Source: Chitinophaga pinensis
GTDB lineage: Bacteria; Bacteroidota; Bacteroidia; Chitinophagales; CAMDFR01
Length of the DNA: 36,946 nt
Reading direction: 5' to 3'
Assembly (NCBI GenBank): GCA_945860705.1
Contig: CAMART010000030.1
Location: forward strand, 1-36,946
The notes beneath the pieces are model-generated. The model did no database searches. It had not been told where the DNA came from and worked only from the letters and a program-made list of their open reading frames with translations. The position numbers were made by a program, and so were the translations under genes. Positions within the stretch are counted from its first letter, which is position 1, and each line of letters begins with the position of its first letter. Below, in pieces: positions 22,090-26,536 of the stretch.

Positions 22090-22851
22090 TTATTTACTCG
22101 ACAACGATGCACTCAAATATTCTCTATTCAATCGTGCAATATTTGTGATAGAAATTCCTTTTGGACATTCTGCTTCACATGCTCCAGTATTGGTACATGA
22201 ACCAAAACCTTCTTCTTCCATCTGATTGACCATCGCAAGTACTCTTGATTTTCTCTCTGGCTGTCCTTGTGGCAAAAGCGCATATTGAGAAACTTTAGCA
22301 GAAACAAAAAGCATCGCACTTGAATTTTTGCATGCAGCAACACAAGCTCCACAACCTATACAAGCAGCACTAGTAAATGATTCATCAGCATCTTCTTTTG
22401 AGATAGGCAAGCTGTTCGCATCTTGTGCATTACCTGTATTTACTGATACATATCCTCCTGCTGCCATGATTCTATCAAATGAAGAACGATCTACTGCTAA
22501 ATCTTTGATAACTGGAAATGCTGCTGCTCTCCATGGTTCTATAACAACAGTATCTCCATTTTTGAATGAACGCATATGAAGTTGACAAGTAGTCACACCT
22601 TGTTTTGGACCATGTGGCTGACCATTGATATACATGCTACACATACCGCAGATTCCTTCTCTACAGTCGTGGTCAAAAGCTACAGGTTCCTTACCTTCAA
22701 CAATTAGTTTTTCGTTGAGCACATCTACCATTTCGAGGAAAGACATATCTGGCGAAATACCACTAATAGGATACGTTTCAAATATACCTTTAGCTTCTTT
22801 ATTTTTTTGTCTCCAGATTTTTAGCGTTAAATTCATATCTCCGTGACTCAT
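22090..22851 (-). CDS. sdhB: Succinate dehydrogenase/fumarate reductase iron-sulfur subunit
   Basis: 253 aa. It carries the electron path of complex II from flavin to quinone. The 2Fe-2S ligands are Cys63, Cys68, Cys71 (CREGICGMC) and Cys89. The 4Fe-4S and 3Fe-4S clusters use Cys164/167/170 (CIGCGAC) and Cys174, then Cys219, Cys225 and Cys229 (CP). All are present, so the protein looks functional. Normally sdhB directly follows sdhA; here two foreign-looking genes lie between, and sdhB starts 23 bp after the nuclease-like gene. It must be expressed by read-through from sdhC or from an internal promoter I cannot see. The minus-strand terminator at 22031-22065 ends the unit. Confidence 0.96.
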
Positions 22852-22874: not shown

Positions 22875-23318
22875 TTATATTATTTCTTCTAATAATTGTG
22901 ACTTAATAATCAAGTTATTTATCTTATTTATTCTTTTTATTTTAATATCGAGTGCTTTACGTTTATTATCGATATAATTAGGACTTGGAGTTTTAGATGT
23001 AACTATTCTTAAATTTAATTTTAATGATTTTAAATAATCATCTGATATCAATTTAATTGTTCTCTCTAATTGATCAAAGGCTTTACTAACATCTGCTCCT
23101 TTCAATTCCAATAATATTAATTCAATTTTTTCATTTTCTATTATATAATCAGCTCTCTCATCTTTAAAATCACTTCTATCTAAATCTAAAACTGATAATA
23201 CTTTTTCATCTTTATTAATGCCAATGTATTTTGACTTTAATGAAGTTAAAGAAATTATTTTTCTTTTCTCATTCTTACAAATATGATATGCATCTTCATT
23301 TATTACTTGATTATACAT
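22875..23318 (-). CDS. Small PD-(D/E)XK nuclease-like protein, partner of the adjacent ATPase
   Basis: 147 aa from the ATG at 23318 (MYNQVINEDA); a TTG two codons earlier is an alternative. I do not recognise a named family. Residues 52-84 read KDERADYIIENEK...LLELKGADVSKAFDQL. Asp57, Glu71-Leu-Lys73 and Gln83 match the D...ExK...Q arrangement of the PD-(D/E)XK nuclease core on successive strands. RIVTSKTPSPNY (104-115) could be the last core strand, and the C-terminus is lysine-rich and helical. Its ATG overlaps the ATPase stop by 8 bp, so the two are translationally coupled. The base composition looks more AT-rich than sdhA or sdhB, suggesting acquisition. Nuclease activity is inferred from the motif only. 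Confidence 0.6.
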   Translation of the reverse strand: MYNQVINEDAYHICKNEKRKIISLTSLKSKYIGINKDEKVLSVLDLDRSDFKDERADYIIENEKIELILLELKGADVSKAFDQLERTIKLISDDYLKSLKLNLRIVTSKTPSPNYIDNKRKALDIKIKRINKINNLIIKSQLLEEII

Positions 23319-24432
23319 TGTCAAATTCTAAATTTAAAATTTTATCATATTCTTCATTTATCTCTTTTGAAACCGAATCTATTTTACTTACATCTATTTG
23401 ATTCAGTTCCATATCCATAATGTTTTCATATCTTCCATCTGCATACAACATATAGGCACTTACATCTGCTGGATTTACCCAATATTTTTTATGAATTATT
23501 TCACTTGCTTTTTCATTTTTCTGACCTACATTATAAGCATACATTAAGTTATTTAACGAAGATAATATATATGGGCTGTGGGTGGTTATGAAAAGGTTAT
23601 CATCATGTAAAGGACATTTTATTATCAAATATTTAACTAATTTATTTTGAGTAACAGGAAATAAATTTATCTCTGGTACTTCAATTATAAAATTTCCTTT
23701 TCTATAGTTATCATCTTTTATTGGATTATAAAATCCTTCGATTATCATAAAAAGTGGAATACTTGATTGAAATCCGCTTGAAGCTTTTGTTAATGCAATT
23801 CTATAATGTGAAGTATTGATAAATTCTATACCATTTTCAATTGATAAGAATGCATCTAAAACCTCAAGTTTTAATCCTTTAAAATCATTCTTACAAATTT
23901 GGTAGTCACTTCCAAAATCTTGTAAATATACTGGTATATCTATATTATTTTTAGTAAAAGAGAAAGATGAATTAGAAATCATTGGAATTAGATTCCTTTC
24001 TGTTGGAATATAGTACACTATGTTATTAGCAACAGTTGAGATAGTATTCAGTAATTCTTTTCTTAATTGAATATCAATTTTATCTTCAGAACCTGATATA
24101 TTGTTAATATAGTTATTGATTAAATTTTTTAATTCATTATTATAAAATTTTACATATGAATTAATATTTTTTATTTCTAATATATAATTTTGATTAGAAT
24201 ATAAAAAAGATGAAAACTCATTAAAGTATTCAGCTATTTGAAACTCATCTAATAAATCCGTGAAATTTTCATAGAAATCACCAATAAATAAATGTTCATC
24301 CCTAAATATCGCCAACAACTTAGCCAACGTACTTTTCCCACTGCCTTGTTCACCAATCAAAATATTGATTTTCTTGATGTCAAGCTCTACATCCTTGATA
24401 GGACCAAAGTTTTTAACAATGAGTTTTTCCAA
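23311..24432 (-). CDS. ABC/OLD-like AAA ATPase, possible defence ATPase
   Basis: 373 aa, soluble. It opens MEKLIVKNFGPIKDVELD, typical of OLD/RecF-like ATPases. Walker A is GEQGSGKST (27-35). YIPTERNLIP (141-150) is a motif common in this group. A signature-like KASSGFQSS lies at 216-224. Walker B is FIIEVPEINLFP (248-259), with Glu251 in the Asp position and Val252 where the catalytic Glu normally stands. A His-switch occurs as TTHSPYIL (283-290). The region between 50 and 135 replaces a long coiled coil. No TOPRIM domain follows, so any nuclease would be the coupled downstream protein. The gene is AT-rich and sits 121 bp after sdhA. Family membership is sure, the biological role is not. Confidence 0.8.
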   Translation of the reverse strand: MEKLIVKNFGPIKDVELDIKKINILIGEQGSGKSTLAKLLAIFRDEHLFIGDFYENFTDLLDEFQIAEYFNEFSSFLYSNQNYILEIKNINSYVKFYNNELKNLINNYINNISGSEDKIDIQLRKELLNTISTVANNIVYYIPTERNLIPMISNSSFSFTKNNIDIPVYLQDFGSDYQICKNDFKGLKLEVLDAFLSIENGIEFINTSHYRIALTKASSGFQSSIPLFMIIEGFYNPIKDDNYRKGNFIIEVPEINLFPVTQNKLVKYLIIKCPLHDDNLFITTHSPYILSSLNNLMYAYNVGQKNEKASEIIHKKYWVNPADVSAYMLYADGRYENIMDMELNQIDVSKIDSVSKEINEEYDKILNLEFDNV

Positions 24433-24553
24433 TTACTTTTTTACTCTATTTATATAAAAAAATTCCAATGTTCAAATTCCAATTTACAATGTTAATTTAT
24501 TAAACTTTAAACTCGATTTTTCTCATTCAAAATTCAACACTCAACATTCAACA
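24433..24553. repeat. Degenerate short-word repeat after sdhA
   Basis: Between the sdhA stop and the ATPase start the sequence is built of near-repeats such as CAACACTCAACATTCAACAT (plus strand, about 24530-24553), and AATTCCAATGTTCAAATTCC further out. It has no coding potential and no clear terminator. Similar word-like runs follow the stop codons at 3000 and 31077. Confidence 0.55.
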
Positions 24554-26536
24554 TTATTTATAGCTTCTACTTGCTATCTTAATATTTTCGTATTTCAATT
24601 CCTCTTTGTTTAATGTCCAGTCTCCAACAGAATTGAACTCCCAAGCTGCTACATAAGCATAATTTTCATCATCTCTATTTGCTTCTCCTTCTTCTGTTTG
24701 GTATTCTTCTCTGAAGTGACCACCACAACTTTCATTTCTATTAAGAGCATCTCTACACATGAGTTCACCTAGTTCTATGAAATCTGCAACTCTACCTGCT
24801 TTTTCTAATTCAGGATTAAATTCATCCATCGTACCAGGTACTCGTACATCTCTCCAAAACTCTTCTCTGATAGATTGTATATCCGCAATAGCTTGTTTTA
24901 AACCTTTTTCACTTCGAGCCATACCACATTCATTCCACATTATTTTACCTAGTCGTTTATGAAAATAATCAACAGATTTAGTCCCTTTGATATTCATCAA
25001 TTTCTCTAAAGTAGATTTTACATTTTTCTCTGCTTCTACAAATGCCTCATGGTCTGTAGACATAGAAGGTGTACGTATCTCATTAGATAAATATGCCCCA
25101 ATAGTATATGGAATCACAAAATATCCATCAGCCAAACCTTGCATCAATGCAGATGCACCAAGTCTATTAGCTCCATGGTCAGAAAAATTAGCTTCACCTA
25201 ATGCATACAAACCCGGAACAGTAGTCATCAAGTTATAGTCTACCCAAAGTCCACCCATAGTATAGTGTACCGCTGGATATATTCTCATAGGTACCTCGTA
25301 TGGATTTTCATCAGTGATTTGTTTGTACATATCAAACAAATTACCATATTTTTCTTTCACTACATCTTTACCTAATTTGATGATAGTAGCCTCATCTGGA
25401 TTGTGTATGTTTTGTTTAGTAGCTTCTACTCTACCGTATCTTTTCATATTAGCTGCAAAGTCTAAGTAAACAGCCATTTTGGATGTACCTACACCATAGC
25501 CTGCATCACATCTTTCTTTTGCTGCTCTAGATGCCACATCTCTTGGAACTAAATTACCAAATGCTGGATATCTTCTTTCTAAGAAATAATCTCTTTCTTC
25601 TTCAGGTATCTCAGTAGCTTTTCTGGTATCGCCTTGTTTTTTTGGTGTCCAAATTCTACCATCATTTCTAAGAGACTCAGACATCAATGTCAATTTTGAT
25701 TGATGGTCTCCACTCACTGGTATACAAGTTGGGTGAATCTGAGTAAAGCAAGGATTACCAAAAAACGCTCCTTTTTTATGAGCTTTCCAAGCAGCAGTAA
25801 CATTGCTACCCATAGCATTGGTAGAAAGATAGAATACATTGCCATATCCTCCTGTACAAAGTAGTACTGCATGACCAAAATGTCTTTCTAATTTTCCAGT
25901 AACAAGGTCACGTGCAATAATCCCTCTACACTTACCATCAATATTTACTATATCTAGCATCTCATGACGTTTGTATGATTGGATTGTGCCCATACCTACT
26001 TGTCTTTGAAGGGCACTATATGCACCTAAAAGTAACTGTTGTCCCGTTTGACCTGCAGCATAGAAAGTTCTTTGTACTTGTGTACCACCAAAAGAACGAT
26101 TGCTCAACAATCCGCCATATTCACGAGCAAAAGGAACCCCTTGTGCAACGCATTGGTCAATAATATTACCACTTACCTCTGCCAATCTATGCACATTTGC
26201 TTCTCTAGCTCTATAATCACCACCTTTAATAGTATCATAAAAAAGTCTATAGATACTATCCCCATCATTTTGATAGTTTTTTGCTGCATTGATACCACCT
26301 TGAGCGGCAATAGAATGCGCTCTACGAGCAGAATCTTGAAAATAGAATACTTTTACTTTGTATCCCATTTCTGCCAAAGAAGCTGCTGCTGCTGATCCTG
26401 CAAGACCAGTACCTACTACTATTACTTCAAGATTTCTCTTGTTAGCTGGATTTACCAATGGTACTGATGATTTATATTTTGTCCATTTTTCGGCTAAGTT
26501 GCCTTCAGGAATTTTTGCATCTAATTTTTGACTCAT
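24554..26536 (-). CDS. sdhA: Succinate dehydrogenase/fumarate reductase flavoprotein subunit
   Basis: 660 aa, oxidising succinate to fumarate (or the reverse) at the inner membrane's cytoplasmic face. The Rossmann FAD motif is [17 protein letters not shown] (40-56) and the covalent FAD ligand is His74 in [11 protein letters not shown]. The substrate-site segments [15 protein letters not shown] and SRAAKERCD-type regions are present, as is the C-terminal capping helix. The form is the longer soluble-subunit type of Bacteroidota/epsilon-like complex II. It is the second gene of the operon, 30 bp after sdhC. The next gene downstream should be sdhB but is instead the ATPase. Confidence 0.96.

Follow-up and report, generated by a model that had tools for sequence, protein, structure and literature searches.

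A predicted ATPase-nuclease pair, probably a phage-defence module, between sdhA and sdhB of Chitinophaga pinensis

Why should an ATPase gene and a small nuclease-like gene lie inside an operon of central respiration? We analysed such a case in a 36,946-nucleotide stretch of Chitinophaga pinensis DNA (contig CAMART010000030.1, the window in the following). On the minus strand, the genes are ordered sdhC (27310-26567, cytochrome b subunit), sdhA (24554-26536, flavoprotein subunit), an ATPase gene (23311-24432, 373 aa), a small gene with ATG start (22875-23318, 147 aa) and sdhB (22090-22851, iron-sulfur subunit), so that sdhA and sdhB form the left and right flank of a putative docking site. The coordinates confirm the arrangement given in the initial annotation, including the 8-bp overlap between the ATG of the small gene and the stop of the ATPase gene. 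The ATPase gene begins with TTG, immediately preceded by an in-frame TAA. Both genes had been described as more AT-rich than sdhA and sdhB, which holds: their GC contents are 21% (nuclease) and 25% (ATPase) versus 37-39% for the two sdh genes, with 32.6% for the window. Inspecting the ORF list of the window by eye, we recognised no phage genes.

The 121-bp spacer 3' of the sdhA stop (24433-24553) had been noted for word-like repeats. About four copies of the heptamer TGTTGAA are indeed present, but they are not specific to this junction: the repeat occurs at about nine further sites of the 2.94-Mb genome (0 in the reversed control). Like the copies at 24526-24553 of the window, these sites are intergenic spacers, often just past a gene end. 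The heptamer is a dispersed genomic repeat; with copies throughout the genome, a role as integration signal is unsupported.

The ATPase is of the ABC type and matches AAA_15/AAA_21. Among all PADLOC families, PDC-M29A scored best (2.2e-38), followed by AriA (1.9e-22), while the PtuA models remained far below M29A (1.2e-8). For the structural model (pLDDT 89.5), the nearest solved fold was PtuA, as known from Septu and retrons (Z ~18); Rad50/SMC heads scored slightly lower, and AriA reached Z 15. The Walker A lysine is K33 (24334-24336, minus strand). Walker B reads IIEVPE, and its V252 (23677-23679, minus strand) replaces the second, catalytic glutamate in the window ATPase only; all 78 other ATPases with a readable motif have EEPE. 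The window copy may thus be attenuated, as judged from its TTG start and the change from Glu to Val. One could go further and regard the pair as a decaying passenger that was acquired horizontally and no longer functions, to which both peculiarities would fit. However, both frames are fully open, the catalytic residues of the nuclease are intact and TTG starts were called for several other carriers of the pair too. Nor does Val252 prove lost function, since the related BcGajA was reported to act despite lacking ATP hydrolysis (PMC10568477). We consider such decay unlikely.

For the small protein, the initial annotation had pointed to a pattern of D57 (23148-23150), E71 (23106-23108), K73 (23100-23102) and Q83 (23070-23072; all minus strand). 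In an alignment of 20 nuclease homologues, D47, D57, E71 and K73 are invariant and L72, G74, D76, A80 and Q83 nearly so (Q83 in at least 90%). Since it is conserved in homologues, the D...ExK...Q motif is not a chance pattern. The window protein itself matched the PADLOC model PDC-M29B weakly (9e-4); 15 of the 20 homologues matched it as well, at best with 1e-11. AlphaFold2 gave a model (pLDDT 85.8, pTM 0.81) with strands at residues 58-62 and 66-72, a helix at 77-90 and a strand at 100-107, in the order expected of a PD-(D/E)XK core (alpha-beta-beta-beta-alpha-beta). Its best structural matches were Can2/Card1-type nucleases, with BspD6I, EcoT38I, EndoMS and FokI lower in the list; these matches were modest (VIA Z 5.0-6.7), and some unrelated folds were interspersed. 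Foldseek returned nothing with E <0.001, no relative was detected among PDB sequences and no match to plasmids and phages was obtained at E 0.01. The structure check that had been proposed for the 147-aa protein thus yielded a PD-(D/E)XK-like core, and motif and model together predict a PD-(D/E)XK nuclease with near certainty.

Do the two genes belong together? Scanning public genomes with an ATPase alignment yielded 80 loci from Bacteroidota, Campylobacterota, Cyanobacteriota, Pseudomonadota and others, whereas a scan of genome contigs with the window ATPase as single query gave no match. In 76 of the 79 testable loci, most of them outside sdh operons, a D...ExK protein is encoded directly downstream of the related ATPase (versus upstream in 7 loci, our control); the two genes form a unit. 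On sequence grounds, the pair belongs, as a divergent member, to the PADLOC candidate family PDC-M29, for which our literature search found no published characterisation or activity data. The pair itself is therefore not a new kind. The earlier proposal of a type unlike those named held for Septu, Gabija and PARIS, but an undescribed type would be too strong a claim, because the PDC-M29A/B match exists. In three of the carriers at the sdh junction (L147, L181 and L189), the partner protein is clearly different yet retains E-x-K, as if effectors had been exchanged. M29 pairs were also seen directly upstream of and co-directional with corA-pta in Flavobacterium and genome G242 (L145, L194 and L139, with ackA next in L139), and several Hymenobacter pairs adjoin dxs convergently. 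About 1 kb from the pair in L139 lies a 1168-aa ORF (L139:10304-13810) without Pfam match, which may resemble Cas13b.

We then asked whether the position between sdhA and sdhB is peculiar. In three genomes of the same genus the slot is empty, with sdhA and sdhB 20-74 bp apart. Genomes of the order were ranked by how closely their sdhB resembles that of the window, and the highest ranks were taken, so that the sample is not random; among about 124 of them with linked genes, the gap exceeds 150 bp in about 29. Such gaps were found at 17 of 78 sdhA-sdhB junctions versus 4 of 78 sdhC-sdhA junctions, which served as control (Fisher p 0.004). Among control pairs that are still linked, inserts were present in 0 of 26 atpA-atpG and about 1 of 22 rpoB-rpoC pairs, which speaks against a uniform invasion of all core operons in this order. 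Apparent inserts upstream of rpoC or atpG were, in the cases fetched, genes parted from their usual neighbour. Between rpoB and rpoC of another genome of the order (L351:300-2157, contig G443:C97), an AAA ATPase gene (two ORFs, perhaps broken) and an RloB/DUF4276-like gene lie on the strand of rpoB and rpoC, so that here, too, a core operon houses an ATPase and a partner gene. In G006, G027, G039 and G617 (L024, L023, L018 and L140), sdhB is apparently unlinked from sdhA.

Elsewhere in the order, the slot holds other cargo: a GT2-like glycosyltransferase, 23S-rRNA-IVP-type proteins, PDDEXK_3 proteins, a PDDEXK_2 protein, a nucleotidyltransferase/substrate-binding (MNT/HEPN-type) pair, a GT90-type protein and small lipoprotein-like genes. 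One conserved glycosyltransferase-like gene recurs at this position in two families (L008, L036, L037, L045, L055, L061, L072 and L127). Two cargoes share the slot in L147 and L149, where the ATPase and its small partner are followed by a glycosyltransferase-like gene and then by sdhB. The junction would thus serve as a docking site at which cargo is swapped without a recombinase; searching the literature, we found no sdh docking site.

Including the window, 13 genomes carry the pair exactly between sdhA and sdhB: three belong to other families (G033, G446 and G427) and nine are further loci (L143, L146, L147, L149, L151, L153, L181, L189 and L199). The contigs of L143, L146 and L189 are filed under Phycisphaerales, Beijerinckiaceae and Limnohabitans, and their sdh operons are of the Bacteroidota type. 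Since their sdhA is 70-80% identical to that of the window, these contigs probably stem from Bacteroidota and were mis-binned. Most carriers show tight spacing, with 0-24 bp on either side of the pair. Within the order, the slot is occupied by the pair in 4 of 299 genomes. These four copies are the four best-scoring members of the order sample, a ranking favoured by the search model, which was itself built from junction copies; the other 15 matching genomes carry their copy elsewhere, as far as flanks were readable. That is, relatives do not always carry these genes at the junction, and most M29 relatives reside at other sites.

Could the pair be an accessory for the biogenesis or regulation of succinate dehydrogenase? 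The exact recurrent position, the compact spacing over very divergent hosts and the restriction of one ATPase lineage to the slot would be expected of such a partner. However, the pair is missing from near relatives, those of the same genus included, in which sdhCAB is intact, the few occupied slots of the order are the exception, homologues exist in prophages and beside unrelated genes, and the nuclease has preserved its active-site motif despite the divergence of the ATPases (31-55% identity among carriers versus 69-85% for sdhA). We regard an accessory function as very improbable.

How the junction copies are related was addressed with a tree of 12 junction ATPases (the truncated L199 was left out) and non-junction members, those from the same order included. 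In 88% of bootstrap trees, the junction ATPases fall on one side of a single branch. On the sdhA tree, however, the carriers are scattered (12 changes) among neighbours that mostly lack the pair. Together, these sequence comparisons point to one old ATPase lineage that specialised to the slot and was repeatedly gained and lost. As to origin, the pair might instead have been inherited vertically from an ancestor of the order that had it in the slot, followed by many losses. The single ATPase group and its deep internal divergence would agree with this, as would the result that close pairs, compared at the sdh flanks for recombination tracts, showed no identity drop near the insertion. Yet ATPase distances among carriers do not follow those of sdhA (Mantel r 0.07, p 0.30), L181 and L189 combine distant sdhA (69-73%) with ATPases nested among the L146, L147 and L141 proteins, and the 12 changes would require many independent losses. 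Purely vertical descent therefore appears unlikely to us, and we prefer repeated gain and loss of a slot-bound lineage. Since the insert contains no recombinase gene, the simplest route of spread, which we infer for this lineage, is homologous recombination through its conserved flanks, sdhA and sdhB. In the most far-reaching form of this reading, a defence lineage confined to the slot and tied to respiration in its expression, and perhaps in an ATP-gated activation, would move across genera and families by sdh-flank recombination, with the slot as its recombinase-free docking site. We put this forward tentatively, as a possibility that we ourselves rather doubt. What is new, relative to the literature searched, is a lineage bound to a slot of the succinate dehydrogenase operon.

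The link to phage defence comes from a distant relative. In P2-family prophages of E. coli, a homologous pair is flanked by gpA, which encodes the replication endonuclease, and gpQ, which encodes the portal protein. It was found in 10 of 5,426 complete genomes, and this location was read in two of the 10 and in one contig of a viral collection; PHROGs confirmed flanking gpA, portal and tape-measure genes. Both genes are clearly homologous: the ATPase shows 27% identity (E 2e-37), and profile comparison related the nucleases with 99% probability, an ELKGxDVxKA stretch and the Gln being common to them. The gpA-gpQ interval is the P2 defence hotspot of Rousset et al. (PMC9122126), and residence of a homologous pair in this published hotspot supports a role in phage defence. 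In two further contigs of the viral collection (L225 and L239), pairs adjoin a phage repressor and a primase. In contrast, support from classical defence islands is weak, because few of the 148 genes flanking non-sdh members match PADLOC at 1e-15. These neighbours are mostly housekeeping genes, and a location of non-sdh family members in defence islands is unsupported. Taken together, the sequence evidence indicates that the pair is probably a phage-defence module with a predicted PD-(D/E)XK effector, and the original reading as a compact, inserted and defence-like ATPase-nuclease pair that is co-directional with sdh is supported.

A selfish module of toxin-antitoxin character, with the nuclease as toxin, the ATPase as antitoxin and the seat in a core operon lowering the chance of loss, would share several of these features. 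A small effector encoded in overlap with a larger ATPase is what one would expect, and the slot cargo of other genomes includes the MNT/HEPN-type pair, 23S-IVP-type proteins and PD-(D/E)XK singletons. PARIS itself has reportedly been described in toxin-antitoxin terms before. But addiction would be weak, given how readily close relatives have an empty slot, and residence in the P2 gpA-gpQ hotspot favours an antiphage function. We think it rather improbable that the pair is a selfish module of this kind; the toxin-antitoxin reading is compatible with defence and does not exclude it.

We therefore favour, with some confidence, an anti-phage module in which the ABC ATPase controls the PD-(D/E)XK nuclease, in a permissive slot and in a lineage that moves between hosts. 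If the pair works like Septu and PARIS, the ATPase would oligomerise, bind ATP and restrain the nuclease. In PARIS, AriB is held by AriA and set free by a trigger (PMC11455837); here, a phage cue or a drop in nucleotide would free the nuclease. The freed enzyme might cut phage or host nucleic acid, either DNA or tRNA, and thereby stop the infection. Cutting of tRNA has been reported as the mode of action of Septu (PMC13096335) and of AriB (PMC12409363). Because of the tight spacing, we place the pair in the sdh transcription unit, so that respiring cells would always produce it. The sdhA-sdhB junction would act as a permissive slot in which modules and other small genes come and go.

Searches for defence systems usually focus on defence islands and mobile elements. 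Those based on islands would overlook a family nested beside or inside core operons, such as sdhA-sdhB or, in Flavobacterium, corA-pta. The slot could also serve as a natural experiment, with identical operon and flanks either empty or filled in sister species, in which spread and cost of defence modules would be testable without mobile-element confounders. In addition, PtuA/AriA-type ATPases, whose known effectors are of the HNH and TOPRIM types, would with this family gain a PD-(D/E)XK effector.

How does the pair compare with known systems? PDC-M29 (M29A plus M29B) is the best database match and has both genes, but the window pair is divergent, above all in its weakly matching small protein, and the sdh-resident lineage is undescribed there. 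OLD-family proteins have a C-terminal or separate TOPRIM, whereas neither window protein gave a TOPRIM match. Gabija differs in both components: GajA carries a fused TOPRIM that the 373-aa window ATPase lacks, and instead of a GajB-type UvrD-like helicase the pair has sdh genes as neighbours. PARIS shares the stand-alone AAA_15/21-type ATPase beside an effector nuclease gene, and AriA is a structural match; however, AriB is a TOPRIM/DUF4435 tRNA nuclease, whereas the window effector is of the PD-(D/E)XK type and matched neither DUF4435 nor TOPRIM in domain-family and PADLOC searches. Septu and retron-associated PtuAB likewise combine an ABC ATPase with a small nuclease partner gene; PtuA is the closest solved fold, but the PADLOC PtuA models rank far below M29A. 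PtuB, however, is an HNH protein, while the window partner shows PD-(D/E)XK motif and fold, and the same searches detected no HNH family in the window proteins. Finally, the gpA-gpQ hotspot of P2 prophages (the old/tin locus) houses a homologous ATPase-nuclease pair in E. coli, but there the pair is phage-borne, whereas the window slot is part of a chromosomal core operon.
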